The notes: a model not told the origin generated them from the sequence alone. A stretch of DNA of 40,285 bases from Candidatus Eiseniibacteriota bacterium (GCA_030595835.1 JAUVLG010000017.1:1-40285); one strand, 5' to 3'. Shown: positions 4,272 to 34,050, counted from the first letter of the stretch. A program made the numbers and translations.

Positions 4272-5456
4272 ATGGCTCTCTCCAGCAAATGCCGCGAGTT
4301 CAACGCCTGGGTCGATTCCCTCAAGGCCGCCAACCAGTTCTTCTACCTGCGTCAGATGGATCCCGCTGCGAGTCCGGTCGTGACGATGAACGGCCGGAAG
4401 CTCATCATGCTCGGCTCGAACAACTACCTTGGACTGGCGACTCACCCGAAGGTCGTACAGGCGACCGTCAAGGCGGTCGAGGAGTACGGCACCGGCGCGT
4501 GCAGTTCGCGCGTGCTCACGGGAACCACGAGCCTTCACAACAGGCTCGAGAGGAAGCTCGCTGAGTTCAAGGGCACGGAGGCCGCCGTCGTCTTCAGCAC
4601 CGGCTTCATGACGATGATGGGGACCATCAGTACCATGACGGAGGAGGGGGACGTCGTCCTGAGCGACGAGTTCAATCACGCGAGCATCGTCGAGGGCTGC
4701 CGGCTGACCGGCGCCGAGGTGAAGGTCTACAAGCACAACGACATGGCGAGCCTCGAAGACGAACTGTCGAAATGCGACGACTCATCCGACAAACTCATCG
4801 TGACCGACGGCGTGTTCAGCATGAAGGGAACCCTCGGTGACATCCCCGGCATCAAGAAGCTCGCCGACCGCTTCGGTGCTGCGATCATGGTGGACGACGC
4901 GCACGGGACGGGCGCGATAGGCGCCACCGGTCGCGGGACGCTCGAGTACTTCGGCATGGAAGGGCAGGCCGACTTCGTATGTGGCACGTTCAGCAAGTCG
5001 CTGGGCACTATCGGCGGCTTCACGGCGTCTACGCAGGAGGTCGTGTCCTACCTCAAGCTGAGGTCTCGGCCCTTCATCTTCTCAGCGAGTCCGCCGCCGT
5101 CCTCCATGGCCACGGTGCTCGCGTGCCTCGAGGTGATGGAGGAGGAGCCCGAGCTCATGAAGAGGCTCGGGAAGAACACCGACTTCCTGAGAGAGGGGCT
5201 TCTGGACGCGGGCTTCAGGCTCGAGCCGACCGTAACTCCCATATTACCCATCCTCATCGGTGACGAGGAGCAGACCTTCCTGATGGCGGGCGGTCTGGAG
5301 GACGAAGGGGTGATCGTGAATCCGGTCGTCTCTCCGGCCGTGCCAAAGGAGGGTTCTCTGATACGCATCAGTGTGATGGCGAGTCTGGGGGACGACGAGC
5401 TTGCGATCGCACTCGATAAGCTCAAGTTGGTTGGAGGCAAGCTGGGGTTGATCTGA
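4272..5456 (+). CDS. spt: serine palmitoyltransferase-type PLP enzyme (alpha-oxoamine synthase family)
   Basis: 394 residues, fold-type I PLP enzyme of the alpha-oxoamine synthase family (SPT, KBL, BioF, HemA). Visible motifs are NNYLGL (~50-55), GTGACSSRVLTGT, HND, DDAHGTG (Asp 209, His 211) and the PLP Lys 242 in GTFSKSLGTIGGF. That FSKS.GT.GGF signature and the following RPFIFSASPPP are characteristic of serine palmitoyltransferase; KBL and BioF normally have LGKA..G instead. The expected reaction is condensation of serine (or another amino acid) with a long-chain acyl thioester to 3-ketosphinganine plus CO2. A downstream acyl-CoA ligase and SDR reductase supply the flanking steps, which supports a sphingoid-base pathway. 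Substrate choice is inferred. The ATG is preceded by GAGGGGGG. Confidence 0.75.
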   Translation: MALSSKCREFNAWVDSLKAANQFFYLRQMDPAASPVVTMNGRKLIMLGSNNYLGLATHPKVVQATVKAVEEYGTGACSSRVLTGTTSLHNRLERKLAEFKGTEAAVVFSTGFMTMMGTISTMTEEGDVVLSDEFNHASIVEGCRLTGAEVKVYKHNDMASLEDELSKCDDSSDKLIVTDGVFSMKGTLGDIPGIKKLADRFGAAIMVDDAHGTGAIGATGRGTLEYFGMEGQADFVCGTFSKSLGTIGGFTASTQEVVSYLKLRSRPFIFSASPPPSSMATVLACLEVMEEEPELMKRLGKNTDFLREGLLDAGFRLEPTVTPILPILIGDEEQTFLMAGGLEDEGVIVNPVVSPAVPKEGSLIRISVMASLGDDELAIALDKLKLVGGKLGLI

Positions 5457-5485
5457 CGCCGCGGAATCGACGAGGGGGCGCCGCG

Positions 5486-6463
5486 ATGACCGGGAACAGG
5501 TACCGTCTGCTGAGCTGGGGTTTCCTCAAGTCGTACATTGTGACGATGCGGCCATACCTGCTCTTCGTGTCGGGCGCCGCGGGGCTGGTCGGGCTCGCGT
5601 TCATCGATGGCCCGCCGCTCTGGCGCGTTGCCCTTGCCTTCGTCCCGCTCTTCTTCTCGTACGGACTGGGGCAGGCGCTGACCGATTGCTTCCAGACCGA
5701 CACCGACGCCATCTCTGCGCCCTACCGGCCGCTCGTCAGGGGAGTGGTGTCGAAGACGCAGGTCTTCTGGGTCAGCCTCGTCGGGTTGACCATCGTCGTT
5801 CTCATCCTGGCGTACCTGAACCTCTGGATCCTGCCGCTCGGGTTCCTCGCTGTCATAGGACTACTGACCTACACGTACTTCAAGCGCAGGTGGTGGGGCG
5901 GTCCTCCGTGGAACGCGTGGATCGTCGCCATCCTGCCGATGATGGGCCGGCTCGTCGACAGGGACTACGGCCTGGGTGAACTCGTTCGCTTCGGCGACCT
6001 GCGGACGCCCGCGTTCTGCCTGTCGGTCATCGCGATATTTGCGGGCTACGCGAACTTCGTGGTTATGGGGTACTTCAAGGACATCTCCGCCGATCGTGAG
6101 ACGGGCTACCAGACGTTCCCGGTAGTCTTCGGCTGGCGGGCCAATGCCATCTACGGTGATGTCACCGCTCTCATCGTCGCGGGTCTCGCCGCCTGGGTGG
6201 TCGCGCTGACGGGCGGGGGCTTCCTGGCGTGGGCGGTGCTGGTCGCCGCGGTCGCGCTCCAGCTGCACGCGCAGGTGAGCGTCCACCGGACGCGCGACGA
6301 GCACGTCGTCGGGACGCCCATCGCCAACGGAGTCCGCGCGCTCATCCTCTTCTGCCTGGCCATCGTGCTCGCGCTCAAGCCCGGGTGGTTAGGTTTCGCG
6401 GGTATCTTCTACGTTGCTTTCGAACTGGTGCTCAGGCTGAGGCCCGAGCGCGGTCAGGTCTGA
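5486..6463 (+). CDS. UbiA-family prenyltransferase
   Basis: 325 residues, about eight hydrophobic helices, starting at ATG 5486 after a GAGGGGG ribosome binding site. The first Asp-rich motif is TDCFQTDTDA (66-75), a variant of the usual NDxxDxxxD. The second is KDISADRETGY (198-208), the classical DxxxD with Arg-Glu-Thr/His-Gly. These bind Mg-diphosphate of a prenyl donor. The family transfers polyprenyl chains to aromatic or other acceptors in the membrane (UbiA, MenA, chlorophyll synthase, DGGGP synthase). The acceptor here is unknown; no quinone or chlorophyll genes are nearby. Its place between the SPT-type gene and a lipid kinase suggests that the product of this operon may carry an isoprenoid chain. 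Confidence 0.85.
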   Translation: MTGNRYRLLSWGFLKSYIVTMRPYLLFVSGAAGLVGLAFIDGPPLWRVALAFVPLFFSYGLGQALTDCFQTDTDAISAPYRPLVRGVVSKTQVFWVSLVGLTIVVLILAYLNLWILPLGFLAVIGLLTYTYFKRRWWGGPPWNAWIVAILPMMGRLVDRDYGLGELVRFGDLRTPAFCLSVIAIFAGYANFVVMGYFKDISADRETGYQTFPVVFGWRANAIYGDVTALIVAGLAAWVVALTGGGFLAWAVLVAAVALQLHAQVSVHRTRDEHVVGTPIANGVRALILFCLAIVLALKPGWLGFAGIFYVAFELVLRLRPERGQV

Positions 6464-6473
6464 CGGGGGGCAC

Positions 6474-7469
6474 TTGGCGGACCCTGCGAACCCGCGTGTC
6501 ATCAGAGTCTTCGTCAATCCCGGTGCGACGTACGGCACCGGGCGCGAGCGCTGGTCCCGGGTGGAAGGTGAGCTGCGACGCAGGCTGGGCGACTTCGAAG
6601 TGGAGGAGACCGGTGCGCCCGGGCAGCTGCGGGGAAGGCTCGCCGAACTCGTGCGGCAGGGCGTCTATAGGTTTGTGGCCGCCGGCGGCGACGGGACCGT
6701 CAATCTGCTGGCGAACGCCATCATGGCGCTTCCTGAGAGCGAACTGTCTGAGCGGGAGCTTCCCGGGGGGCAACTCGCCAGGCGCGAGCGGATCGTCCTC
6801 GGCGCGGTCGGGCTGGGGTCGAGCAACGACTTCCACAAACCATTCGACGAGAGCGCGACGATAGAGGGCATGCCGGTCAAGGTCGACTTCGACGGCGCCC
6901 GGGAGCGCGATGTCATCCGCATCGAATACGAGGAGCCTGAGGGTCCCGTGGCCACGCGCTATTCCCTCATCAACGCCAGCGTGGGCGTGACGGCCGAGGC
7001 GAACGCGCGATTCAACGAGCCCAACTGGTTCATCAGAGCGGCTCGCGCGGTGTCGGTCGACGCCGCCATCAGCGCTGCGGTTATCACAACGCTTGCTACC
7101 TGGACCGACGTGACCTGTGCGCTCGCGATAGACGGGGAGGAGCCCGCGATGGCGAGCGTCACGAACCTGGGTGTGTTCAAGAACGCGCACTTCGGCGGCG
7201 CGCTGTGCTACGATGCGCCCGTGGCGCCCGACGATGGTACGCTGGGTGTCGGGCTCTGTGAGAATATGTCGGCGTTCGAGACCGTGGCCACGCTCTCGGC
7301 TTTGCGGAGGCGCCGGTTCAGCGGACGGCCGAAGACGAGAACGTGGAGGGCGCGCAGCCTCTCCGTTCAGGGTGACCGCGCATTCGCGCTCGAGACGGAC
7401 GGTGAGGTACTGCAGGCGAGAAGCGCGCGGTTCAGCATTGCTTCGAGACGCGTGAGCTGTTGCGAGTAG
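6474..7469 (+). CDS. diacylglycerol kinase / sphingosine kinase family lipid kinase
   Basis: 331 residues from TTG 6474, just after a GGGGGG stretch; only 10 bases separate it from the prenyltransferase. Family signatures are FVNPGA near the N-terminus (13-18), the nucleotide-binding GGDGT (71-75) and GSSNDF (115-120, usually GTxNDFA). A beta-rich C-terminal half ends with the typical ETDGE segment (EDGE/DGE in DgkB and YegS). Such enzymes phosphorylate diacylglycerol, ceramide or sphingoid bases with ATP at the membrane. Next to an SPT-type enzyme, a long-chain-base kinase is attractive, but the sequence alone cannot separate this from diacylglycerol kinase. A second ATG-like start is not evident. 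Confidence 0.8.
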   Translation: MADPANPRVIRVFVNPGATYGTGRERWSRVEGELRRRLGDFEVEETGAPGQLRGRLAELVRQGVYRFVAAGGDGTVNLLANAIMALPESELSERELPGGQLARRERIVLGAVGLGSSNDFHKPFDESATIEGMPVKVDFDGARERDVIRIEYEEPEGPVATRYSLINASVGVTAEANARFNEPNWFIRAARAVSVDAAISAAVITTLATWTDVTCALAIDGEEPAMASVTNLGVFKNAHFGGALCYDAPVAPDDGTLGVGLCENMSAFETVATLSALRRRRFSGRPKTRTWRARSLSVQGDRAFALETDGEVLQARSARFSIASRRVSCCE

Positions 7470-7545
7470 CTGTGGTGTATGGCGAGCCGCGCCCGTGCAC
7501 CACCGGCGGGCGGCCGTGTGCGACGGGAAGGACGGGGTGCCGGAC

Positions 7546-8604
7546 ATGAGTGGTATGGACGGAATCCGAGAGAACGCGATCATCAATGCGTGGGCCGGGC
7601 GCTTCCGGCGTTCGCCCGACCAGCACAACGAACCTCACGAGACGGACGCGGAGCTGGTCGAGATGCCGGGCGAGCCTGAGCGCTTCCTGGCCATCACGAT
7701 AGACACGGTCTCAGAAGAGATAACCGAGGGCATCTACCGCGACCCTCACACCATGGGGTGGGTGACGGCAGTTGCGTCGCTGAGCGATCTGGCAGCGGTC
7801 GGCGCCGATCCGATCGGGATCGTGGTGTCGGTTTCCACGACGCCGGACGCCGACGAGGAGTTCACGCGCCGCGTCGCTGAGGGGTTGGAGTACGCGTGCC
7901 GAGCGCACGGCGTCTTCATTTTGGGTGGAGACACGAATGCGGCTCCCACGACGTCGCTGACGGCATGCGCGGTGGGACTGGTTCCCAGGGAGCGCGTGTT
8001 GACACGGAAGGGCGCGGTGCCGGGCGACGCGGTGTTCCTGAGCGGCCACGCGGGCATCGGGAACGCTCTCGGCCTCGCCAGGCTGGGTGGCCTGCCGGAT
8101 GACGCGTTCCTCGAGAGCGGATACCGCCCAACCGCGGAGCTCGCGATGGGCCGGCTGCTGCGCGGGTTCGCGTCCTCGTGTATGGACACGAGCGACGGCG
8201 TGTTCGCGACGCTCGACCAGATGATGCGCATTAACGGCACCGGCTTCGTCATCGACTGCAACTGTAGCAGGATGCTCGACCCCAACGTGCTCGACTTCTG
8301 CAAGCGGACAGATACACCCCGATGGCTGATGGCGGCGGGCCCGCACGGTGAGTTTAGGTTGCTCTTCACGGTGTCGCCGGAGAAGGTCGCCGGCTTCATG
8401 GGAGCGGTCACGCGCGAGGGGCTGGCGCCCGTCAGCCTCGGCACGGTGCAGGAGAGAAGGGCCGTTTCCGTGGTGACGGACGCGGGGACCACCATCGATG
8501 TGGACGTGGCCCGTCTGAGGAATCTCCTCTACGACGTCGAAGGTGACATGGAGCGTTTCGTCCGCGAATTCGTGAAGGCTGGGGAAGAGTGGGGGCTGAC
8601 GTAA
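7546..8604 (+). CDS. ThiL/AIR-synthase-like protein with altered motifs
   Basis: 352 residues from ATG 7546; upstream in-frame codons are possible but look non-coding. The fold is that of the PurM/ThiL superfamily: TIDTVSEEI..G (like DTLVEGVHF in ThiL), SLSDLAAVGADP, ILGGDTN, KGAVPGDAVFLSG..GIG, CMDTSDGVFATLDQM (SDGL in ThiL). It departs from thiamine-monophosphate kinase in two places. The N-terminal GDDxA Mg/ATP motif is not visible, and the normal GGEDYELLF is replaced by AAGPHGEFRLLF. I therefore doubt that it makes thiamine diphosphate. Given its setting in a lipid operon, it may be a small-molecule kinase or synthase with another substrate. The function is unknown. Confidence 0.8.
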   Translation: MSGMDGIRENAIINAWAGRFRRSPDQHNEPHETDAELVEMPGEPERFLAITIDTVSEEITEGIYRDPHTMGWVTAVASLSDLAAVGADPIGIVVSVSTTPDADEEFTRRVAEGLEYACRAHGVFILGGDTNAAPTTSLTACAVGLVPRERVLTRKGAVPGDAVFLSGHAGIGNALGLARLGGLPDDAFLESGYRPTAELAMGRLLRGFASSCMDTSDGVFATLDQMMRINGTGFVIDCNCSRMLDPNVLDFCKRTDTPRWLMAAGPHGEFRLLFTVSPEKVAGFMGAVTREGLAPVSLGTVQERRAVSVVTDAGTTIDVDVARLRNLLYDVEGDMERFVREFVKAGEEWGLT

Positions 8605-8638
8605 CCTGTCGGAGACACCAAGAGGCGGAGGGCAGACA

Positions 8639-10453
8639 TTGGCCGACACCATCCACGGGTCATTTCGTGAGGCAGCGGCGAACCACAGAGACAAGGTAGC
8701 GCTGAGGCACCGCAAGGACGGGCGCTACGTCGAAATGACATACGGGGAGCTCGAGAGCTGGGTGGACGCGGTCGCGGCCAGGCTTGTGTTGTTCGGGGTC
8801 AAGAAGGGGGACACCGTCGGGGTCCTCTCGCAAAACCGGCCGCAGTGGGTCATCGCCGACCTCGCTTCACTCAGTCTCGGCGCCGGCGTCGTTCCTCTCT
8901 ACCCAACGCTGCCTCCGTCCTACCTGCAGTACATCATCAACGATTCTCACATGACAGTACTGGTGGCGGGCGACGCTCTGCTGCTCACGTCCATATCGAC
9001 GGTGATGGACGAGACCCCGGATCTCGCGCAGACGCTGCTCCTGGACGATGCGGCGATCGAGCTGGGAACGGCCGCGTTCTCGTCCGATCCAGGGTCCGAC
9101 CTCAGGAGTGATCCGTCGCGGCGCGCCATCGCGTACCCCGACGTCGTGGGGGACGACATCGCGACCATCGTCTACACGTCCGGAACGACCGGCGCTCCGA
9201 AGGGCGTCGTGCTTACTCACACCAACATTGTGTCCAACGCCAGGGCTCTGACCGACAGATACGGCATCTGCTCCGATGACTCCACGGTTTCGTACCTGCC
9301 GCTGTCGCACATGTTCGAGCGGACGTGCGGTTACTACACATTCCTGTTCGCGGGCGCGACCATCACCTACGCGGACCAGATGACCAGCGTGGCGAAGGAC
9401 GTCGCCGCGGCACACCCGACCGTGCTCATCGCCGTCCCCAGGGTGCTTGAGAAAGCACATGCCGTGGCGCGCGGGAAGATAGAAGGGCACTCGAAGCGCA
9501 AACAGGCGCTGGTCAGAGATGCCATCCACGACCTCAACGAACGGGCGAATCTGCGTTACCGTGGGGAGCGCGTCTCGCCGTGGCTCGCGCTCAAGTGTGT
9601 CGTCTACGACAGGCTCGTGGCGAAGAAGTTCAGAGACGCGGCCGGTGGACGTCTGCGGATCATCGTTTCTGGAGGCGCCTCTCTCGACAGACAGGTCGCC
9701 AAGGTACTCTTCGTCGTGGGGTTCAACGTGTTCGAGGGGTACGGCATGACGGAGGCCTCACCGGTCATCGCGTGCAGCCCGGTCGAGGCCATCCGGCTGG
9801 GCACCGTCGGGACGCCTCTTGAGGGAGTCGAGGTGAAGATAGGGGAGTCGGACGAGATACTCGTGCGCGGGCCCGGTGTGATGCGGGGCTACCTCGGGCG
9901 ACCCGAGGAGACGGCCGAGGCGCTCGACACTGACGGTTGGCTTCACACCGGCGACCAGGGGGTGCTGGACGCGGACGGCTACCTTTCCATCACCGGGCGA
10001 CTCAAGGATCTCATAGTCACGTCCTACGGGAAGAACATCTCGCCGCAGCCCATCGAGGAGGGAATCGCGAGAAGCAAGTACGTGGCGCAGGTGATGGTCT
10101 GCGGTGACAACAGGCAGTATCTGGTAGCGCTGGTCGTGCCGGACAGCGAGGCCATTGTCAAGTACGCCCGGGACAGCGTCATCCCCTTCGACGAGTACAC
10201 CGCATTGCTCAGGAGGGATGAGATCCGGGAACTCATATCCGGGGAGATAGACCGCGTCAACAAAGCGGCGCCGTCCTACGAGCAGATCCGAGGGTTCGAC
10301 ATCCTGCCGGAGGCGTTTACGCTCGAGAACGGCATGCTGACGCCGACTCTGAAGCCGCGGCGTGGCAGGATCACGATGATACACGGGGACGTAATCGAAC
10401 GGTTGTACGCGAGCACGGACGCAGGCAAGAGAGACGGGGGAGACTCAGCATGA
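8639..10453 (+). CDS. long-chain acyl-CoA ligase (AMP-forming)
   Basis: 604 residues from TTG 8639, with CGGAGGG 6 bases upstream. This is an ANL-superfamily adenylate-forming enzyme: P-loop-like YTSGTTGAPKGVV (around residue 178), SYLPLSHMFERT, GYGMTEASPVI (about 367), HTGDQGVLD...GYLSITGR.KD with the hinge, and TSYGKNISPQPIE. The last three match the FACL/long-chain acyl-CoA synthetase group (FadD15-like), not acetyl-CoA or aryl ligases. It activates a fatty acid with ATP and CoA at the membrane and could feed acyl-CoA to the SPT-type enzyme, much as an acyl-ACP ligase sits beside spt in Caulobacter. Its stop overlaps the reductase start (ATGA). Confidence 0.9.
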   Translation: MADTIHGSFREAAANHRDKVALRHRKDGRYVEMTYGELESWVDAVAARLVLFGVKKGDTVGVLSQNRPQWVIADLASLSLGAGVVPLYPTLPPSYLQYIINDSHMTVLVAGDALLLTSISTVMDETPDLAQTLLLDDAAIELGTAAFSSDPGSDLRSDPSRRAIAYPDVVGDDIATIVYTSGTTGAPKGVVLTHTNIVSNARALTDRYGICSDDSTVSYLPLSHMFERTCGYYTFLFAGATITYADQMTSVAKDVAAAHPTVLIAVPRVLEKAHAVARGKIEGHSKRKQALVRDAIHDLNERANLRYRGERVSPWLALKCVVYDRLVAKKFRDAAGGRLRIIVSGGASLDRQVAKVLFVVGFNVFEGYGMTEASPVIACSPVEAIRLGTVGTPLEGVEVKIGESDEILVRGPGVMRGYLGRPEETAEALDTDGWLHTGDQGVLDADGYLSITGRLKDLIVTSYGKNISPQPIEEGIARSKYVAQVMVCGDNRQYLVALVVPDSEAIVKYARDSVIPFDEYTALLRRDEIRELISGEIDRVNKAAPSYEQIRGFDILPEAFTLENGMLTPTLKPRRGRITMIHGDVIERLYASTDAGKRDGGDSA

Positions 10454-11253
10454 AGCTCGACGGTAAGCGTGTGCTCCTGACAGGGGCGTCTTCAGGGATA
10501 GGCCTCGAGCTCGCGCGCGTGCTCGTGGCTCGCGATGCGGTCCTGGCCATCTCCTCGCGCAGCGCCGAGCGCCTGGAGCAGCTCTCCGAGGAGCTGGCGT
10601 CTGCTTGCCCGGGCATTCGGAAGCCCCTGCCCGTCGCCTGCGACGTCGCGGACGGGGAGTCGGTGCGCCACCTCATCGGTGCGTGCGTCGAGTCCCTCGG
10701 TACGGTGGACGTGCTCATCAACAACGCCGGCATCTGCGTCTACGGCAGCGTTGAGAAGACGCCGGTCACTAACTTCCGCACGCTGCTGGACGTCAATTTC
10801 CTGGGTCCCGTCCAGGCGATGCTCGAGGTCCTGCCGTTCATGAAGCGACAGGGACACGGTCTCATCGTCAACATCTCATCAGTTGCTGCGATTCACGGCG
10901 TACCCTATCTGGGGGCTTACAGCGCCAGCAAGGCGGCGCTCGTGGCACTGAGTCAGAGCATGCGCGCGGAGCTTGCCGGGTCGGGCGTGCGGGTGATGAT
11001 GGTCTACCCGGACTACACCGAGAGCGCCATCTTCGAGAACGAGACCAAGGTTGGCGGGGGCAGGCGGCCCGAGGGGCCATACGCCCCGACGGCCGAGGTG
11101 GCCGAGGCCATTGTCCGAGCCATTGAGAGCGAGAAGCGCGACCTCATCCTCGGCGCGCGCGGGAAAGCCCTGGCTTTCTTCGACGCGACCGCGCCGCTGC
11201 TGGTCGAGAAGGCGATGCGGAAGATCGCGGCGGAGCTTCGCGAGGAGGAGTAG
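10450..11253 (+). CDS. short-chain dehydrogenase/reductase, 3-ketosphinganine-reductase-like
   Basis: 267 residues. Classical SDR: TGASSGIG (11-18) for NAD(P), NNAG (91-94), Ser 143/144, and YSASK with Tyr 157 and Lys 161. Ser-Arg after beta-2 (ISSRSAERLEQL) suggests NADPH. The C-terminal segment (helical, about 220-267, LAFFDATAPLLVEKAMRKI) is like that of membrane-associated lipid reductases such as 3-ketodihydrosphingosine reductase and DHRS7-type proteins. It overlaps the ligase gene by 4 bases, so it is translated from the same mRNA. The natural role in this operon would be reduction of the 3-keto product of the SPT-type enzyme. That assignment rests on context. Confidence 0.8.
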   Translation: MKLDGKRVLLTGASSGIGLELARVLVARDAVLAISSRSAERLEQLSEELASACPGIRKPLPVACDVADGESVRHLIGACVESLGTVDVLINNAGICVYGSVEKTPVTNFRTLLDVNFLGPVQAMLEVLPFMKRQGHGLIVNISSVAAIHGVPYLGAYSASKAALVALSQSMRAELAGSGVRVMMVYPDYTESAIFENETKVGGGRRPEGPYAPTAEVAEAIVRAIESEKRDLILGARGKALAFFDATAPLLVEKAMRKIAAELREEE

Positions 11254-11325
11254 TCGGGCCGGAGCAATGGCTCGGTCACGCGCGTGGCGCAGACGGACGC
11301 GGAAGCGTCCATGGAGAGCGGCCGC

Positions 11326-12699
11326 ATGAGCAAACCCAAGCTCAAGATCATCGTGCTGTTCCAGAACCTCGGCGACCAGGAGACCTACTTCGCCCGGTCG
11401 CCGACGCCGCCGCTCTCGGGCATCCTCGTGGCCGGCCAGACGCCGGACATCGTTGAGGTCGATGTGCACCACGAGATGGTGCGCCCCATCAACTACGATA
11501 CGGACGCCGACATCATCGCTCTCTCGTTCATGGACTACTGCTCTCCGCACGCCTACGACGTCGCTGCGCGATTCAGGAAGCTCGGGAAGACCGTCGTCGC
11601 GGGCGGGAAGTACCCATCGACGTTCCCCGAGATGGTGCAGCCACACTTCGACACCATCGTCGTGGGGGAGTCCGAGCGCATCTGGCCGCAGGTTGTGGAG
11701 GACCTCGTGGCGGGGAAGCAGAAGGCGCGTTACGACGCCCCGTTCGCGCCGCCGCTGGACGGGATACCACCGCCGCGCTACGACCTCGTCGAGTCGAAGT
11801 ACATGACACCGATGGTCACCGAGGCGACGCGCGGGTGTCCCTACACGTGCAGTTTCTGCCAGCTGATGGTCAAGCCCGCTCCCTTCCGCAAGCGTCCGAT
11901 CGAGGATGTGATAGCGGACCTCACGGCGACGGAGAAGCTGCCTTTCCATCGACGCAAGCTCGCGATGCTCTACGACAACAACCTCGGGGGCGACGTCGAG
12001 TACGCCAAGGACCTGCTGCGCGAGATCGCGAAGGTCAAGCTCTGGGGCCTCGCCACGCAGTTCAGCTTCGACTGCCTGCACGACGACGAGTACATCGATC
12101 TCTTGGCTGAGGCCGGTGGCATCACGGCCTTCATCGGGCTCGAGTCCCTGAACGAACCCAGCCTCCTGTCGGTGCACAAGAAGCAGAACCGGGTCGAGGA
12201 GTACCAGGAGCTCTTCGCGAAGATGAAGGAGCGTGGCATCCTCACGTTCACCGGACTCATGCTGGCGCTGGACGAGGACACGCCCGAGTACTACGACTCG
12301 ATGCCCGAACGCCTCGAGGAGATCGACCCGTCCGCGATACTGCTGTCGATATCGATCCCGATTCCCGGGACGCCGTTCCACAAGAAGGTTGTGGAGGAGG
12401 GGCGTCTCATCGACGAGGATCTCTCGCACTACGAGGGCGACCATCTGGTCCTACAGCCCAAGCACGTCACGCCGAAACAAGTGTTCGATGCGTTCCGACG
12501 CGTCAACGGGACGTTCTACTCGGGGAGGAACATCCTGAGACGATGGTGGAGGGTCGTGACGGCTTTCAGGGAGAAGAACCCGTTCAGGTGGATCTTCCGG
12601 ATCGGTGTTATTACGGCGGTGTTCGCGGAGCTGACGAAATTCCAGAAGGACCATGCCGAGCAGAGGGTGTACATCATCGATCCGGAGGCGCACGAGTAA
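11326..12699 (+). CDS. radical-SAM enzyme with N-terminal B12-binding-type domain
   Basis: 457 residues from ATG 11326 (GGAG 9 bases upstream); in-frame starts at 11284 (GTG) and 11311 (ATG) are possible. Residues ~1-130 form a Rossmann-like cobalamin-type domain (VVAGGKYPSTFPE, VVGESERIWPQ) without the DxHxxG ligand motif, as in many class B enzymes. The radical-SAM cluster motif is TRGCPYTCSFC with Cys 171, 175 and 178. Then come GLESLN and IPIPGTPFHKK. The HpnJ/BchE-like layout points to methylation, C-C bond formation or ring chemistry on a lipid or isoprenoid. The C-terminal ~60 residues are basic and hydrophobic and may touch the membrane. The substrate is unknown, presumably an intermediate of this operon. 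Confidence 0.85.
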   Translation: MSKPKLKIIVLFQNLGDQETYFARSPTPPLSGILVAGQTPDIVEVDVHHEMVRPINYDTDADIIALSFMDYCSPHAYDVAARFRKLGKTVVAGGKYPSTFPEMVQPHFDTIVVGESERIWPQVVEDLVAGKQKARYDAPFAPPLDGIPPPRYDLVESKYMTPMVTEATRGCPYTCSFCQLMVKPAPFRKRPIEDVIADLTATEKLPFHRRKLAMLYDNNLGGDVEYAKDLLREIAKVKLWGLATQFSFDCLHDDEYIDLLAEAGGITAFIGLESLNEPSLLSVHKKQNRVEEYQELFAKMKERGILTFTGLMLALDEDTPEYYDSMPERLEEIDPSAILLSISIPIPGTPFHKKVVEEGRLIDEDLSHYEGDHLVLQPKHVTPKQVFDAFRRVNGTFYSGRNILRRWWRVVTAFREKNPFRWIFRIGVITAVFAELTKFQKDHAEQRVYIIDPEAHE

Positions 12700-12749
12700 T
12701 GCGCGGTTGCCCCGCGCAGCAGTGATGTGGGAGCGAAAGGAGGGGGAGA

Positions 12750-13130
12750 ATGGCACGAGTAGCCCTGATCACGGGCGCAATCATCGAGATCGTGTTCCGT
12801 GGTATCCCGGCGCTTGTTGGAACGCCTGAGATCGCCCACATGTTCCGGCTCGAGTTTCTGCCCGGGTTCATTCCGTACGTTCACGCGTTCGGCGCCGTGA
12901 TGGTGACGTTCGGGATCATGTTCCTCATCGCCGCCAAGATCCCCGAGAGGCACGTGCTCGTCATCAACATGGGGATACTGCGCTTCTCCCTGGGCATTCT
13001 GGCGCAGTTCTGGACCTTCGTCCAGATGGGCGAACTCCACATCTTCTGGTGGATCCACATGATCATCGACGCGCTGCTGGTGTTCTTCCTGCTGGCGGGT
13101 CGGACGAAGATGATGCAGAAGGTAGCGTAG
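12750..13130 (+). CDS. small four-helix membrane protein
   Basis: 126 residues with an excellent ribosome binding site (GAAAGGAGGGGGAG) and ATG 12750. Four hydrophobic segments are visible: about 2-24, 40-63, 70-92 and 97-118, the last two linked by MGELHIFWWIHM. Short loops carry His and Glu residues (AHMFRLEF, ERHVLV, GELHIFWWIH). I do not recognise the family; DUF4345-like or DoxX-like small membrane proteins have a similar outline. As the last gene of the lipid operon, 50 bases after the radical-SAM gene, it may be a membrane partner of one of the enzymes. Confidence 0.75.
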   Translation: MARVALITGAIIEIVFRGIPALVGTPEIAHMFRLEFLPGFIPYVHAFGAVMVTFGIMFLIAAKIPERHVLVINMGILRFSLGILAQFWTFVQMGELHIFWWIHMIIDALLVFFLLAGRTKMMQKVA

Positions 13131-13238
13131 GTGGAGGATGTCGCGCTGATGAGATGAACGTGCGACTGTACGGAATCGCGCAGAGGTGGGACGTGGTTTG
13201 AGGGGGGCTGAGCTCGCGCGGGCTTGGATCCTAACGCG

Positions 13239-13266
13239 GGAGGCCGGGGGGTAACCCCCGGCCTCC
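13239..13266. terminator. bidirectional hairpin terminator after the lipid operon
   Basis: GGAGGCCGGGGG (13239-13250), loop GTAA (a GNRA-type tetraloop in RNA), CCCCCGGCCTCC (13255-13266). The 12-bp stem is perfect. It lies between two convergent units, the lipid operon (stop 13130) and the symporter gene (stop 13296). No T-run follows on either strand. Confidence 0.7.
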
Positions 13267-13295
13267 TCACGATGGTAGCGCCGGCGACCGGTCCG

Positions 13296-14684
13296 CTACT
13301 CCGGCGCCCACGCCTTCCTGAACACCACGAATCTCACAAACAGCCAGACGCCTATCGCGCCCAGTGTGACGAACCAGATGGGCCACGGGTTCGCGCGGAA
13401 GATGTAGAGAAGAGGCACGACCGTGCTCGTCCACAGCCCCCCGCCCATGAACGGCTCGTGGAGGAGTTGCTTGTAGCCGAATGCGTCGGGCGCCTTGGTC
13501 TCGAACTTGGGGTCGGCGACGCGGAGCAGGAGGATGCCGGTGGCGGTGACGCCGGTAGACTGGCCGAACTCGGCTATGGAACGCTCGAACCAGAAGTCGG
13601 GCAGCATGCGGCGTGCGAGGAACATCACGCACCAGACGTTCCACGCGATGCCGACCAGCATCAGGATGAGGAACGGGACGATGTGCGTGATTATCGCCTC
13701 GATCTTGAGCGTGGCGAGCGCGGCGACGACCAGGTAGTCGAGCGAGAGCCCCTGAAGCCTGCGCATCAGGCGTCTGTCGAGCACCTGCCGTCTGTCGAAC
13801 CGGTCGAAGAGTTTCTGGAGTATCACTCCTCCGACCATTGCGAGCGGGAAGAGGGGGAAGCTGCCGAGGATCGCGTTCTTGGGGTCGGTCAGCCAGAGTC
13901 CCTCGACCCCCGTGAGCCCCTTCTTGAGGATGTAGCCGATGAGCATTGCGACCGCCACAACGGCCAGGTGCATCGCGAGCGTCTCGACCGACTCCGAGCG
14001 GAACGTGAGCTTCCCGGCTTCCGTGCGCTCGCCAGTCGGGACGATGCCGTCTCCGGTGATCTCGCGCGAGTCGCGCTGCTGGGCCGCTCCCTTGCAGTAG
14101 TGCTTGCGCGCGGCCCAGTTGACCAGAGCCATCCCCACGATCACACCAGCGACAACACCTACCGTCGCGGAGCCGAGTGCGAGGTCCGCGCCCTCTGCCC
14201 ACCCCTTGTCGGCGAAGACGGGAGCGAGCCCCGCGGCCGTGCCGTGGCCGCCCTCGAACCCGATCGGGATGATCGCGCCGAACATCGGTGGTATGTCGAA
14301 GAAGCGCGTGAGAATGAACAGAGTGATACCGATGCCGACGGCGTACTGACCCCACGCGACTATCTGCCCGAACGCGAGCTGCGGTCCGGCGATGCGCCAG
14401 ACCTTCTTGAGCGGCGGGATGGCTACGCCCAGGAACAGCGTCGCGAAGACGATGTTGATGAGAAAGCTCGGGAGCTTGCTCCAGCCGGCCGTCGCGTCGG
14501 AGACGAACTGGCCGGAGCCCGGCGCGTAGCGCTGCATCAGCTGGACGACGACGAGGCCGAGGAGCCCGCCGATGACGGAGGCGGGGAGGAGCAGCTTCTG
14601 TGTCCACCGGACCTTGGTCCGTATGACCTGCCCGATGAGGAGCAGCAGGCTCAACATGCAGAAGGAAAGGACTATGCGGTCGAT
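13296..14684 (-). CDS. gltS: GltS-type sodium/glutamate symporter, apparently starting at ATC
   Basis: A multi-spanning transporter of the ESS/GltS family: two halves of about five helices, with the paired loops GFEGGHGTA in the first half and GQSTGVTATG in the second, joined by a hydrophilic linker. It imports glutamate with sodium. The first canonical start is ATG 14657, but it lacks a ribosome binding site and would leave the first membrane helix only ~12 residues long. A TAGGAGGT sequence (14690-14697) sits 6 bases before an in-frame ATC (14684-14682). Starting there adds nine residues (DRIVLSFC after the initiator) and restores a full first helix. ATC is a rare but usable start, and a sequencing error is the alternative. 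From ATC the protein is 462 residues; from ATG, 453. Confidence 0.85.
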   Translation of the reverse strand: MDRIVLSFCMLSLLLLIGQVIRTKVRWTQKLLLPASVIGGLLGLVVVQLMQRYAPGSGQFVSDATAGWSKLPSFLINIVFATLFLGVAIPPLKKVWRIAGPQLAFGQIVAWGQYAVGIGITLFILTRFFDIPPMFGAIIPIGFEGGHGTAAGLAPVFADKGWAEGADLALGSATVGVVAGVIVGMALVNWAARKHYCKGAAQQRDSREITGDGIVPTGERTEAGKLTFRSESVETLAMHLAVVAVAMLIGYILKKGLTGVEGLWLTDPKNAILGSFPLFPLAMVGGVILQKLFDRFDRRQVLDRRLMRRLQGLSLDYLVVAALATLKIEAIITHIVPFLILMLVGIAWNVWCVMFLARRMLPDFWFERSIAEFGQSTGVTATGILLLRVADPKFETKAPDAFGYKQLLHEPFMGGGLWTSTVVPLLYIFRANPWPIWFVTLGAIGVWLFVRFVVFRKAWAPE

Positions 14685-24596: not shown

Positions 24597-25496
24597 ATGG
24601 AGAAGCCTGAGTTCTTCCGCGTCTTGAACAACCTCTATGATGCAGTCTGGCTCGTGGACAGCGAACGCCACATCACGCACTGGAATGCGGGCGCCGAGAA
24701 GCTGACGGGCTACACGACCGGCGAGATGGTTGGCGCGGACTGCAGGGACAAGGCGCTGGTGCACCTGAGCGAGGACGGTGTGGATCTGTGCGAGAGCATC
24801 TGCCCGCTCCTTGACACCGACAACCTGCGGGACATACGAGAAGCGCAGGTCTACATACGCCACAAGGAAGGGCACCTCGTGCCCGCGCAGGCCCGGATGG
24901 TTCCCATCAGGGACGCGAACGGACACATCACGGGTGCCGCGGAGATCTTCTCGGACAGGTCGGTGGGGGACGAGATAGAGAAGCGGCTGGAGGAGCTGGA
25001 GCGCCTCGCGCGGCTCGACGTCTTGACGCGCCTGCCGAACAGGCGCTATGTCGAGGAGATAGTGAGCGCGCAACTCGCAGAGCTGGAGCGGTTCGACCGG
25101 TACTTCGGGATTATGATGATAGACCTCGACGGGTTCGCGAAGATCAACGAGAAGTTCAGCACGGCGTCGGGGGACGACGTGCTGCGCATGATCGCCCGGA
25201 CGTGGTTCCTGGCGGCGCGTCCGTTCGACACCGTGGCCAGGTGGGAAGAGGACGCGTTTGCGGTTGTCAGCATCAACGTCGACAGAGAGGGACTGCGTTC
25301 GATGGCGGAGCGCTTCGTGATGCTCCTGAACAACCTGCTCAAGCCGTGGGACAGGTCGGCCCTTGGGATCGGTGCTTCCGTCGGAGCGACGATGGTGCGC
25401 CGGGGCGACTCCACCGACTCGGTCATCCTGCGCGCGGAGAAGATGCTCGAGGAGGCGAAGCTCGGTGGCGGCGGGCAGCTGGTCTTGGAGGAGTAG
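24597..25496 (+). CDS. PAS domain protein with degenerate GGDEF (EEDAF)
   Basis: 299 residues, ATG 24597. A PAS domain (about 6-118) carries Cys 49, Cys 65 and Cys 69 (C-x15-C-x3-C, the last in ESICPLL). A linker helix leads to a GGDEF-fold domain (about 138-299): LDVLTRLPNRR and MIDLDGFAKIN are kept, but the catalytic GGDEF is EEDAF (217-221). The Gly pair is lost and the Glu base is Ala. Diguanylate cyclase activity is therefore unlikely; GTP or c-di-GMP binding, or a scaffold role, is possible. It is paralogous to the gene at 25890. The spaced Cys residues are shared and may bind a metal, Fe-S cluster or haem. Confidence 0.85.
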   Translation: MEKPEFFRVLNNLYDAVWLVDSERHITHWNAGAEKLTGYTTGEMVGADCRDKALVHLSEDGVDLCESICPLLDTDNLRDIREAQVYIRHKEGHLVPAQARMVPIRDANGHITGAAEIFSDRSVGDEIEKRLEELERLARLDVLTRLPNRRYVEEIVSAQLAELERFDRYFGIMMIDLDGFAKINEKFSTASGDDVLRMIARTWFLAARPFDTVARWEEDAFAVVSINVDREGLRSMAERFVMLLNNLLKPWDRSALGIGASVGATMVRRGDSTDSVILRAEKMLEEAKLGGGGQLVLEE

Positions 25497-25712: not shown

Positions 25713-25889
25713 CCGCAGTAGGCACCCATGCGGCGGACGCACTCGCTGGGCAGAAGGTCCTGCCCGCAGCAGCCGCGCAATCGGAGAGTGGCGCAGGGGG
25801 AGGAACTCAGCATCCGGCCGGCTGAAGGCCGGGCCGCCTGGCGGGGTAGAGGGCCTGCGGGGGTGGGCCCAGGGGAGGTGAGGCGAGCA

Positions 25890-26792
25890 ATGGAGAGGTC
25901 GGGGTTCTTCCGTGCGATGATCGACAATCTCCACGACGGGGCCTACTTCGTCGATCGTGACCGCCGCATCGTCTACTGGAACAAGAGCGCAGAGGAGTTG
26001 ACCGGCTACGCCAGCGAAGAAGTGGTCGGCCGGACGTGCGATGATGAGATCCGGATGCATGTCGATGAGGAGGGGAAGAACCTCTGCACGGACATGTGTC
26101 CGATCAGCGAGACGCTTGAGGACGGGGAACTCAGGGAGGCGGAGCTCTTCCTGCATCACAAGTTGGGGCACCGGGTCCCTGTTGCCATCCGCGTGGCGCC
26201 GGTGCGGGACCGGAAGGGTGAGATAACGGGGGCCGTGGAGGTTTTCTCCGAGAACTCGGCCCTGGTGACGGCGCGGGCGCGGATAGGCGAGCTGGAAAGA
26301 ATCGCGACGCTCGACCCGCTGACGCGTTTGCCGAGCAGGCGGTGTATCGAGCAGGAGCTGACGAGCAGGGTGGACGAACTCGCCAGGTTCGGAAGGACGT
26401 TCGGCGTCGTTTCTGTCCGGGTTGACGGGATGGAGAAGCTGAACGGCGCGTTCGGGCGGGACGTCGGCGACGACGTGCTCCGGATGGTCGGGAACACGCT
26501 GCTCTACAACAGCCGGCCGTTCGACGTCATCGGGCGCTGGGGCGGCGCGGAGTACGTCGGCACGGTCGTAGGCGTGGAGCGCGACGGTCTCATCAAGGTC
26601 GCGGAGCGCCTTCGGGCGCTGGTCGGGAAATCGATCCTGCCGCTCGAGGACCGGACGGTCAGCGTGACGGTCTCGGTCGGCGCCGTGATGGCGGAGTGGG
26701 GTGACACCGTGGATGTGCTCATCGACCGGGCCGAGCAGATGATGCACCGCAGCAGAGGCAGGGGTAGGGACAGAGTTACCATATGGAAATAG
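25890..26792 (+). CDS. PAS domain protein with degenerate GGDEF (GGAEY)
   Basis: 300 residues, ATG 25890 after AGGGGAGGTGAGG; the open frame extends upstream, but that part is leader. PAS domain at about 6-118, with the Cys set of its paralogue (Cys 50, 66 and 70; LCTDMCPI). The GGDEF-fold domain (about 138-300) has LDPLTRLPSRR, but the metal-binding first Asp of the DxD segment is Arg (VRVDGM) and the active-site motif is GGAEY (218-222). Both changes should abolish cyclase activity. About 170 bases of leader and a strong promoter separate it from its paralogue, so expression of the two may differ. It may sense redox or a ligand and pass the signal by protein contact. Confidence 0.85.
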   Translation: MERSGFFRAMIDNLHDGAYFVDRDRRIVYWNKSAEELTGYASEEVVGRTCDDEIRMHVDEEGKNLCTDMCPISETLEDGELREAELFLHHKLGHRVPVAIRVAPVRDRKGEITGAVEVFSENSALVTARARIGELERIATLDPLTRLPSRRCIEQELTSRVDELARFGRTFGVVSVRVDGMEKLNGAFGRDVGDDVLRMVGNTLLYNSRPFDVIGRWGGAEYVGTVVGVERDGLIKVAERLRALVGKSILPLEDRTVSVTVSVGAVMAEWGDTVDVLIDRAEQMMHRSRGRGRDRVTIWK

Positions 26793-27057: not shown

Positions 27058-29805
27058 CTACCTCACAAGTACGAGCTTCTGTTCGTCGGCGCCGGCGTCG
27101 CTTTCGCATCGCGCGAAGTACACGCCCGCCGAAACCACGTGCCCGGCCTCGTCCATCCCGTCCCAGACAAACTCGCGGCGCCCGGGCGACACGGCGGCGT
27201 CCACCAGTGTTCTCACCAGCTGCCCGCGCACGTTGTAGACCGCCAGCGTGATCCGCCCGGCGTCGGGTGGGACGTCGAGCTTGAGCGTCGTCGAGTCCGT
27301 GAAGGGTGATGGCCTCGCGGCGTGGAGCTTGAGCGCAATGGAGAGCGGCTCCGTCCCTATGCACGCGCAGCGGGCTGGAGACGCTCCGATGTGGCCGCCA
27401 GATACGCCGGACGCGATGCACGGTGAGCACTCCTGGAGCTGCAGCGCGCCCCGCGCCGCGCCGCAGAACAGCGGGTCGGCGAACAGCATTCCTTCGGCGC
27501 TGCATGAGTCAGGCAGGCTGTCGCCCCCGGCGTTGCCGTAGACGCAGCAGAAGGTCAACGCCGGAGCCGCGCCCTGCTCGCAGGCGACCGCCCCGCCATC
27601 GAGGCTGCCGTAGATGATAGTGTCGATCAGTAGGGGAGAGGAGGCGTGGCAGAATATGCCCCCGCACTCGGGGGCGTCGTTTGCGACCAGCGTGCAGTTC
27701 ACGAACTCCGGTATCGAGCCGTCCCCGCTGGCTACCGCCCCACCGCGTAACGCCGCCTGATTTTCAAGGAACGTGCAGCGCTCGAGCAGTGGGTTCGCCT
27801 GATTGAGGCAGCACAGGCCGCCCGCCGCTCCCGGCGATGAGTTGTACTTGAGGACGATGTTCCTTATCGTCGGCGACGCGCCGTTGAGGTAGATGCCGCC
27901 GCCCGCCTCCTCCGCCAGGCCGGAGCCGGGAGCTCTTCCGTTCACGACTGTGAGTCCCTCGATAAGCGCGTCACGTCCCTCATCCTCGGTGAGAACGAAC
28001 CCGCGTCCGGCGCCGTCGCAGTCGATGACGGTAGCGCCGGGTCCACGGGTTCCGCGAACGCGGATATCTTTGCCGTGAAAGGTGAGGTCCCGGTTGCCCG
28101 GGCCCCTGTAGATTCCGGGAAGCACCTCCACCGTCCGCCCGTCGGCCACGAAGTCAAGAGCGTCCTGGATGGCTGTGAAGTGACCGCCGCCGCCGGCATC
28201 AACCATCACGATGTCGACGTCGATGATGGACAGTGGGACCTCAACGCGGCCCCCGATCGAGTCGGAGTAGCTTGGGTAGGAGGTCGAGGAATCGTGGAGG
28301 AGCCCACGCGCCAGGAACTCGACCACGCCGGTTTGCACCAACGCGTCCGCGATGAGCTCCCACGTTACGCTTTCGTACACGCAGCCAGAGTCGGAGAACC
28401 ACCCCGATAGCGTCCTGGTCGAACACTCCCCGGGCGCCAGACTGCAGAGGTCCGACGGCAGCAGCGTGACCGTCGGGAACTGTGTCTCATCCTGTGCGCC
28501 GAACGGGTGAGGACCCGTGTAGACGACACGAGCGGTCATAGTGAATGGGGTCCCGCGCAGCACCTCGGCCGGGGCGTCGACGCTGATCTTCCATGGAGCG
28601 ACGAGGGTTCCCCACCTGAATGACCTCGGCCAGAGCTCGTCGACAAGGAAGTCCTGGTTGAAGTGCACGTCCGGGCCCTGGTAGACGCCGCTGTGCCATG
28701 GGTCGTGGACTATGTAGACCGCGGTGCTGTCGTCGTAGCCCTTCGCCACACGTGCGTGCGTTCCGTACGAAGAGCTGTCGTACCGCGTCACGATGATGAT
28801 CGGGTAGTTCGCACTGATGAGGGACTTGAGGTCGTTGTGCCGGTCCGGGAAGTCCGGGTCGCTCTCGCCTGGCTGCGACCAGTAGCACTCAAGAGCGCCG
28901 TAACCCAGCCGCCGCTGGTTGTACCCGTGCAGATTGGGGATCTGAATGGCCGAGCTGATGGCGCTGAACTGCGCCGCGCGCATCATGTCGCTAATGTGCG
29001 TGCCGTTCGGACTCGTGTTAGCCACTTGGGCGACGTGTTGCTGGCCGATCTCCGGCCCCCAGTAGTCCATTACCATCTGGACCGTGGCCGGGCCGCAGTT
29101 GTAGTCAGTGAGCTGGTAGTGGTGGGGGACGTCGTCGATGTCGTGGCTCGTAGGGTAGCGGGTGCCGGTGCGGGCGTCCAGGTCCCGAGACGTGGCTGCT
29201 CGTGGCGCGTCCGCCGCGTCCGGTTGTGGCGGCGAGATCTCTTCGTCGGCGAAGGTGTGGATGTCGGACGGGTCGCTCACGTTGATGAAGAGCTCCCTGG
29301 TCCCGGTCAGCGAGTGCCAGTACCAGTAGAGGTGCTTGTTTGGCATGCCGACAACACACAGATCGGTGGCGGAGACGGCAGTTCCCAGTTCGGCGGCGGC
29401 GAGCTGTGCCGCGTGTGCTCCAGTCACCTTCGGAAGCGATGCGAGTGCGGTCTGCTTGCCGAATGCCTGCCAGTCCCCGGTCAGGGCGTCGACCGTCACG
29501 TAGCTCGTGGTCCCGGCGGGCTGCGACGTGAGCGGGACGTAGTAGTAAGAGGGTTCGATGACCGGGTACGAGTGAATGAGAAGCGGCGCTCCTGCTTCCA
29601 CGTGCCTCCCGGCCCAGGGACCGAATGCCCCGGGATCGTTCGGGTGGCGAGCGCTGTACCCCCCGACATGCGCGGCCAGCTGCTGCGCGGTGCCGACGGC
29701 CTCGGTCTCGGTGACCGGAGGGGCGGCGGCTGTGAGAGAGGGGAAGGCAAGCGCGACGACCGCTAGCACGAGCATGGTCGACGCGGACACAGAAACTGGT
29801 CTCAC
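27058..29805 (-). CDS. secreted C39-like peptidase / beta-helix protein with C-terminal sorting domain
   Basis: 915 residues from GTG 29805 (AGAGGA 7 bases upstream); longer starts lack ribosome sites. A signal peptide spans ~1-27. A C39-like cysteine-peptidase domain (~220-380) has Cys 237 (YNCGPATVQMVMDYW), His 350 (YGTHARVAKGYD) and Asp 368 (IVHDPW), forming a plausible catalytic triad. A Cys-rich linker follows, then a right-handed beta-helix region beginning GHFTAIQDALDFVADG and LPGIYRG, with repeated G-G-I/A-x-C turns. The C-terminus (~825-915) is the FlgD/T9SS-like domain (PSPF..STTLKL, WDGMDEAGHVVSAGVYFAR). Likely an exported protein attached or secreted by a type IX-like route; peptidase activity is predicted only. 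Confidence 0.85.
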   Translation of the reverse strand: MRPVSVSASTMLVLAVVALAFPSLTAAAPPVTETEAVGTAQQLAAHVGGYSARHPNDPGAFGPWAGRHVEAGAPLLIHSYPVIEPSYYYVPLTSQPAGTTSYVTVDALTGDWQAFGKQTALASLPKVTGAHAAQLAAAELGTAVSATDLCVVGMPNKHLYWYWHSLTGTRELFINVSDPSDIHTFADEEISPPQPDAADAPRAATSRDLDARTGTRYPTSHDIDDVPHHYQLTDYNCGPATVQMVMDYWGPEIGQQHVAQVANTSPNGTHISDMMRAAQFSAISSAIQIPNLHGYNQRRLGYGALECYWSQPGESDPDFPDRHNDLKSLISANYPIIIVTRYDSSSYGTHARVAKGYDDSTAVYIVHDPWHSGVYQGPDVHFNQDFLVDELWPRSFRWGTLVAPWKISVDAPAEVLRGTPFTMTARVVYTGPHPFGAQDETQFPTVTLLPSDLCSLAPGECSTRTLSGWFSDSGCVYESVTWELIADALVQTGVVEFLARGLLHDSSTSYPSYSDSIGGRVEVPLSIIDVDIVMVDAGGGGHFTAIQDALDFVADGRTVEVLPGIYRGPGNRDLTFHGKDIRVRGTRGPGATVIDCDGAGRGFVLTEDEGRDALIEGLTVVNGRAPGSGLAEEAGGGIYLNGASPTIRNIVLKYNSSPGAAGGLCCLNQANPLLERCTFLENQAALRGGAVASGDGSIPEFVNCTLVANDAPECGGIFCHASSPLLIDTIIYGSLDGGAVACEQGAAPALTFCCVYGNAGGDSLPDSCSAEGMLFADPLFCGAARGALQLQECSPCIASGVSGGHIGASPARCACIGTEPLSIALKLHAARPSPFTDSTTLKLDVPPDAGRITLAVYNVRGQLVRTLVDAAVSPGRREFVWDGMDEAGHVVSAGVYFARCESDAGADEQKLVLVR

Positions 29806-29984
29806 GGTCACATCCTCTGGCTGGGTGTTCCGAGTCCGGTGGGCATCAGGATCTCTGGGACCGCAGCCCGGGGGACGATAGGGGGTGCGGTCAGTGAGAA
29901 CAAGGTAGTATATCATCCGGTGGCGGCGTAGTCAATGAGTAATGGTCAGCAGCACGGGTAATGAGTACTGGAGACTCGCGAGTA

Positions 29985-33875: not shown

Positions 33876-34050
33876 ACTCAGGGAGCCGGTGACAGGTGCT
33901 GACCATCAGGCTGCCGCGTGGAGCAGGGCGCCGGCAGCACTGAGGACTTGTCATGTCCCCCCGAGCCGCTCACTCCGGCGAGCTGTGGTGGAGTGATGCC
34001 CGTTCGTCGTTGTCCCGCAGCTTGGCCCTTTGAAGGGGAGTGTCGCCGTG

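Follow-up and report, generated by a model that had tools for sequence, protein, structure and literature searches.

A 40,285-nucleotide contig of Candidatus Eiseniibacteriota (GCA_030595835.1 JAUVLG010000017.1:1-40285), referred to here as the window, carries between positions 4272 and 13130 a gene cluster that includes a putative serine palmitoyltransferase (SPT)-type α-oxoamine synthase (AOS) and likely encodes a lipid pathway. The window is contig C201 of a 2.85-Mb metagenome-assembled genome (MAG; G000), and its close named matches were Candidatus Eisenbacteria. Reading of the open reading frames (ORFs) revealed eight tightly spaced, co-directional genes on the + strand with short gaps, and a 4-bp overlap between the ligase (8639-10453) and reductase (10450-11253) ORFs, as the first-pass annotation of this sequence had described. 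Seven of the eight proteins were assigned to families by Pfam and NCBIfam. The features are as follows.

4272-5456, + strand: predicted SPT-type AOS, a pyridoxal 5'-phosphate (PLP) enzyme (NCBIfam, PDB match, tree, signatures)
5486-6463, + strand: UbiA-fold membrane enzyme of a distinct subfamily (PF01040, motif, predicted structure)
6474-7469, + strand: YegS/DAGK-family lipid kinase, own subfamily (PF00781 and PF19279, conserved residues)
7546-8604, + strand: ThiL-like kinase of the AIRS family, a thiamine-phosphate kinase paralogue (TIGR01379 below cut-off; start from homologues)
8639-10453, + strand: long-chain acyl-CoA ligase (ACSL; AMP-binding and AMP-binding_C_3), accessory and lineage-specific (PF00501)
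10450-11253, + strand: short-chain dehydrogenase/reductase (SDR), proposed ketone reductase (PF00106)
11284-12699, + strand: B12-type radical S-adenosylmethionine (rSAM) enzyme with CxxxCxxC (PF04055, borderline PF02310)
12750-13130, + strand: small four-helix membrane protein (MP), lineage-specific (no family; homologues after rSAM)
13239-13266, strand not applicable: perfect hairpin with a 12-bp stem and GTAA loop (sequence)

The ThiL-like ORF probably starts at 7546 rather than 7495, because alignments with its homologues begin only near residue 18. The cluster had been said to close with a strong hairpin. A perfect hairpin does exist, but 108 nt beyond the last stop codon, where two genes converge; as it has no U-tract, it does not count as a canonical intrinsic terminator, and the terminator scan did not pick it up.

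Conservation and distribution of the cluster

Most of the evidence comes from draft MAGs, in which a gene lost at the end of a contig is no absence; taxon names of loci are those of the record titles. When the gene order was followed through related genomes, as had been advised, the complete eight-gene order recurred at six other loci (L033, L034, L036, L041, L042, and L044), including one from WOR-3 (L042), so the arrangement is not due to chance. Within the same family, the order SPT-UbiA-DAGK-ThiL-ACSL-SDR-rSAM-MP was kept in genomes G013, G019, G008, G011, and G014 at approximately 50-75% protein identity; other loci of the family had partial copies at the ends of contigs, and a Cloacimonadota locus (L040) had the same order minus only the ligase. 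A 5.5-kb contig of the window's own MAG (G000:C43, L119) held a second copy of the start of the cluster (SPT, UbiA, DAGK, and part of ThiL), with 84-92% protein and 85-89% DNA identity to the window. This copy probably derives from a co-binned related species, and possibly represents a paralogous cluster.

An rSAM-alignment scan of 84,980 GTDB species genomes, which was based on two peptide patterns and therefore missed more distant loci, returned 55 loci in Eisenbacteria, Aminicenantes, Cloacimonadota, WOR-3, Stahlbacteria, Gemmatimonadota, Bacteroidota, and Ignavibacteria. UbiA, DAGK, and ThiL-like genes lay near rSAM in most of the loci long enough to judge, and the two kinase genes adjoined each other in most lineages. 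The AOS gene was inside the cluster in window-type, Bacteroidota, and Ignavibacteria loci. The SDR was frequent, adjoining rSAM in most window-type, Aminicenantes, and Bacteroidales loci. The ligase, found mainly in Eisenbacteria-, WOR-3-, and Stahlbacteria-type loci, and the MP were absent from most other phyla. The eight-gene set is thus lineage-specific, and taking all of it as the pathway was too broad in these two members, while a four-gene core was widespread: outside the window lineage it consisted of UbiA, lipid kinase, ThiL-like protein, and AOS, usually with rSAM and SDR. The Gemmatimonadota and Aminicenantes clusters contained a different small membrane protein and, in many cases, a second SDR. 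At one Gemmatimonadota locus (L197, 8372-9712), such a membrane protein (c9 type) and an SDR were fused in one ORF, suggesting that both act together. One carrier of the cluster, Draconibacterium sediminis (Bacteroidota, L057), is cultured.

Distribution was tested independently of rSAM by searching with a UbiA profile (A2). Of 386 relatives, 14 matched, all with E <1e-100 and nothing further up to E 1e-25; of 396 Bacteroidota genomes sampled evenly, 7 matched. Six new Bacteroidota loci were found via UbiA alone, and UbiA-DAGK-ThiL-AOS was contiguous in 6/6 of them, with rSAM adjacent in 3/6. A genome of another family (G025:C260, L192) carried an SPT-UbiA-DAGK-ThiL operon with no SDR or ligase nearby, and an rSAM orthologue was not found in G025. 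The UbiA-based test therefore defined the core as four genes plus a frequent rSAM. Among 41 genomes, UbiA and rSAM were both present in 11, single in 3 and 1, and both missing in 26 (p = 1.3e-6; p = 0.004 when restricted to the family), p-values that are only indicative since related genomes are not independent.

Properties of the encoded enzymes

Among NCBIfam models the window AOS matched NF047600 (SerpalmtaseCFB) best, at 445 bits against 400 for BioF and 397 for KBL, though under the SPT equivalog cut-off of 640 bits. Its best PDB match was Sphingobacterium SPT (3a2b/8guh, 359 bits; KBL, 282), and alignment with 3a2b showed that the FSKS lysine, NHAS, and VDDAHG motifs were kept (PLP lysine, stacking histidine, and active-site Asp/His); FSKS and PAVP signatures were present. 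A tree with SPT, KBL, and BioF had been suggested as a check. The final tree, from which long branches including the Methylocystis AOS were removed and which did not include proteobacterial SPTs, joined the window clade to Sphingobacterium and Aureispira SPT-like sequences at 97/84, apart from KBL, BioF, and ALAS. Forcing the window AOS with KBL was 10 log units worse (approximately unbiased test, p = 0.178), so that a KBL grouping was disfavoured, not rejected. The window AOS is thus best read from its sequence as an SPT-type enzyme. The same slot of the cluster was filled by two different AOS clades, an argument for the AOS reaction itself being required. Unlinked AOS genes of two Aminicenantes genomes (L112 and L113) joined the second, Bacteroidota/Ignavibacteria clade at 90/91. 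Separate SPT-clade genes lay elsewhere in G044 (Aminicenantes), G050 (Ignavibacteria), and G047 (genome of L056), next to an NAD-epimerase gene in G044 and a GNAT acyltransferase gene in G050 and G047. By domain type only, these neighbours resemble CerR and bCerS of the bacterial ceramide pathway. In those genomes, the cluster thus seems to exist alongside a conventional route.

The lipid kinase matched PF00781 (DAGK_cat) and PF19279 (YegS_C), both over the cut-off, and across 40 sequences conserved GGDGT (G71-T75) and a signature of its own, GLGSSNDFHKP. The ThiL-like protein scored 162.4 bits with TIGR01379, below the ThiL cut-off of 184.15; it retained the GGDT and DTSDG residues, but the first D of GDD and the HF of the ThiL motif were replaced. 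Since 8 of 11 cluster genomes also encoded a genuine, over-cut-off ThiL at another place, the cluster protein was a second, divergent ThiL copy in most genomes tested. A thiamine role was rejected where another ThiL exists; this does not extend to G000, in which no over-cut-off ThiL was found.

The UbiA protein matched PF01040 with E=1.4e-26 (93.8 bits vs a cut-off of 34.2). In its first Asp-rich motif, TD(C)FQxDTD replaced NDxxDxxxD, with T66, Q70, and D74 invariant in 40 sequences, whereas UbiA paralogues of the same genomes kept NDxxDxxxD where the motif was readable. The second DxxxD motif (D199 and D203), the Y129/K133 pair, and R22 were retained, and motif 3 had Y at the position of MjDGGGPS D180. 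In AfUbiA, the N and D of the first motif (N68 and D72) bind Mg2+/diphosphate, and alanine mutants abolish the binding of geranyl diphosphate (GPP) (PMC4106721). Replacement of N and the first D by T and Q therefore alters the first Mg2+/diphosphate site, and the prenylated product proposed in the first-pass annotation is unproven. The predicted structure (predicted local distance difference test score, pLDDT, 91) was best matched by E-value to the digeranylgeranylglyceryl phosphate (DGGGP) synthase 6m31, with AfUbiA and ApUbiA also matching, and 6m31 was the closest solved relative in profile comparison (7e-14). A phosphoribosyl transferase of the decaprenylphosphoryl phosphoribose (DPPR)-synthase type was considered since 8j8j appeared in the fold list (E 4.3e-4), and was rejected because DGGGP synthase was far closer. 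With its changed first motif, the cluster UbiA forms a distinct subfamily.

The rSAM enzyme was the most conserved cluster protein, with approximately 53-74% identity across genera and phyla and 89-96% within the genus. Its CxxxCxxC cysteines (C185, C189, and C192) were invariant, PF04055 was matched, and the B12-binding PF02310 reached 32.0 bits against a cut-off of 32.1. The ligase (PF00501, E=1.6e-83) and SDR (PF00106, E=2.6e-51) were readily assigned. The MP had a predicted structure of four helices (pLDDT 89) and homologues of 54-79% identity downstream of rSAM; no Pfam or NCBIfam family and no PDB fold match was found for it.

Proposed pathway and competing explanations

A single shared pathway, as originally claimed, is favoured because gene order is kept, the core spans approximately eight phyla, loci found via UbiA alone are contiguous, and UbiA and rSAM co-occur. 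At the level of the pathway alone, we regard it as likely that the genes form a single AOS-based lipid pathway separate from the ceramide route. That it is an undescribed route to a long-chain-base membrane lipid without ceramide synthase, in which two kinases prepare the substrate of UbiA, is a tentative proposal to which we give a little less than an even chance. The ligase would supply acyl-CoA, and the SPT-type AOS would join this to an amino acid (probably serine) in a condensation yielding a 2-amino-3-ketone; the SDR would reduce the ketone, and the YegS-type kinase would phosphorylate the resulting lipid alcohol. The ThiL-like kinase may then add a second phosphate, as ThiL does on thiamine monophosphate, giving a lipid diphosphate. 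In UbiA superfamily chemistry the diphosphate is the leaving group, and the UbiA-fold enzyme could join a second group via the lipid diphosphate, replacing N-acylation. Finally, the B12 rSAM enzyme may modify a C-H position by methylation or ring/C-C formation. The first three steps follow the established enzymology of the families, the last three go beyond it, and all substrates, the step order, and the product are predictions from sequence. A new class of bacterial membrane lipid, namely an AOS-derived amino-alcohol lipid carried through two successive kinases to a diphosphate, joined by an altered-site UbiA, and modified by rSAM, is possible and held with less confidence still.

Several observations weigh against this proposal. 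The cluster UbiA has lost the AfUbiA-type N and D, so a diphosphate donor is not assured, and the donors of UbiA enzymes known to us are allylic diphosphates or phosphoribosyl pyrophosphate (PRPP), neither of which describes a sphingoid diphosphate. The Bacteroidota/Ignavibacteria AOS clade has GPPLLNGY in place of the SPT SR-L-GT motif, so its amino acid substrate may differ. In Gemmatimonadota and Aminicenantes loci the AOS lies outside the cluster.

The changed metal site also casts the main doubt on an explanation that retains prenyl transfer, in which UbiA would attach a prenyl chain to a long-chain-base phosphate, giving a prenylated or ether-type sphingoid with one fatty and one isoprenoid chain, and the ThiL-like protein would act on another phosphate such as prenyl phosphate. 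The closeness of UbiA to DGGGP synthase by profile and fold, its retained second DxxxD, Y129/K133, and R22, and the presence of polyprenyl synthases in 11/11 genomes tested all speak for it. However, the T/Q replacement was found in 40/40 sequences, equivalent alanine mutants of AfUbiA lose GPP binding, motif 3 departs from that of MjDGGGPS, and the ThiL-like enzyme has no clear role. We consider this explanation rather unlikely, and the prenylated sphingoid of the first-pass annotation can no longer be upheld as written, being only one possibility.

Autoinducers and precursors of the prodiginine type are further products of AOS enzymes, and the cluster could yield a secreted signal, pigment, or other aminoketone metabolite (CAI-1-like or through pyrrole chemistry) rather than a membrane lipid. 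Its patchy occurrence (the 7 of 396 Bacteroidota above) fits a specialised product. The lipid kinase, membrane UbiA, and long-chain ligase nevertheless point to a long-chain product, and the loci have no conserved exporter or tailoring cassette, which makes a secreted metabolite improbable.

More improbable again is an ordinary ceramide pathway with chance neighbours, in which SPT would give 3-ketosphinganine, the SDR would reduce it, a ceramide synthase would be encoded elsewhere, and UbiA, ThiL-like protein, and rSAM would be unlinked. It is consistent with the SPT-like AOS, SDR, and ligase of the window, and with the window AOS being the sole SPT-clade AOS of G000 besides its near-identical C43 copy. 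It was set aside since UbiA, kinase, ThiL-like protein, and AOS form a core conserved across phyla with two AOS clades, and since G044, G050, and G047 hold a separate SPT locus, so that the conventional route appears to lie elsewhere there.

An archaeal-type ether-lipid cluster with UbiA as its DGGGP synthase, to which the closest solved relative of UbiA and the geranylgeranylglyceryl phosphate (GGGP) and DGGGP synthases encoded by bacteria of the Fibrobacteres-Chlorobi-Bacteroidetes (FCB) group (PMC7852524) lend some colour, was rejected as scarcely credible because the distribution of GGGP synthase (PF01884) does not track the cluster: it was present in the cluster-free relatives G007, G010, and G016, was not found in seven cluster genomes, and in G000 lay on a different contig, with another UbiA gene 3.4 kb away. 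This GGGP synthase and UbiA (G000:C101:8573-9244 and 12623-13339), with a similar arrangement in G008, are a possible archaeal-type ether-lipid pair.

Elsewhere in the window, inspection by eye revealed a small ORF that resembles a lipoprotein and contains a YHS-like metal-binding stretch, VDPVCGKTV...YFCSEDCRDKF (2485-2790, - strand); two adjacent paralogous PAS-GGDEF-like proteins with degenerate GGDEF, RWEEDAF and RWGGAEY (24597-25496 and 25728-26792); and three secreted-looking proteins with similar C-termini of FlgD-like or type IX secretion system (T9SS) type, GxYFxR ... VLxR (27058-29916, 34030-35397, and 35754-38603).

Relation to known systems and significance

Among known systems, the bacterial ceramide pathway (Spt, bCerS, and CerR; in Caulobacter aasR-cerR-acpR-spt, cerS, and cpgB) comes closest, and has been described together with its LCB5/YegS-type kinase (PMC11324152, PMC10331486, and PMC9045371). 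Both have an SPT-type AOS as the first enzyme, an acyl-activating enzyme, a candidate ketone reductase, and an LCB5/YegS-type kinase, but enzymes of the UbiA-fold, ThiL-like, and B12 rSAM kinds occur in the cluster alone, and its reductase is a classical SDR whereas CerR is epimerase-type. The absence of a visible ceramide synthase, noted in the first-pass annotation, was confirmed for the cluster: bCerS, CerR, and AcpR were all missing from the eight genes, bCerS not having been searched across the whole of G000. The likeness once drawn to the Caulobacter spt cluster is therefore loose. Bacterial LCB5/YegS-type kinases act on dihydrosphingosine (PMC9045371) and ceramide (PMC10331486). The dihydrosphingosine kinase PG1348 and ceramide kinase CpgB of sphingolipid producers are likewise of this type, a likeness by description only; unlike them, the cluster kinase adjoins UbiA and ThiL-like genes. 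Its matches to E. coli YegS and to a kinase of Roseomonas encoded close to a PLP-enzyme locus were no more than short and weak.

DGGGP synthase, of archaeal ether lipids and also FCB bacteria, shares the fold of the cluster UbiA and itself uses a phosphorylated lipid alcohol, but the cluster enzyme differs in its TDCFQxDTD motif, the lack of a link to GGGP synthase, and its gene partners. The AIRS fold, GGDT, and DTSDG are shared with ThiL, from which the sub-threshold score and replaced GDD/HF residues set the cluster protein apart. The rSAM enzyme belongs to the same B12-type class as the lipid enzymes HpnJ, HpnR, BchE, and ladderane rSAM; its similarity to the BchE, HpnJ, and ladderane families was weak and far below every curated cut-off, and it forms a family of its own with high identity across phyla. 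No description of this gene combination was found in the open-access literature, although one may have been published elsewhere.

In the Black Sea, 33 Cloacimonadota MAGs had Spt-like genes and none had bCerS or CerR nearby, and replacement by non-homologous proteins was suggested among other possibilities (PMC11334938). The Cloacimonadota locus L040, in which an Spt-like gene lies inside the cluster, offers a concrete candidate for that replacement, and with D. sediminis in culture the pathway can be tested directly. The UbiA subfamily could widen the substrate range known for UbiA-fold enzymes. If the proposal is true, a sphingolipid-like family would be made without ceramide synthase in approximately eight mostly uncultured phyla.

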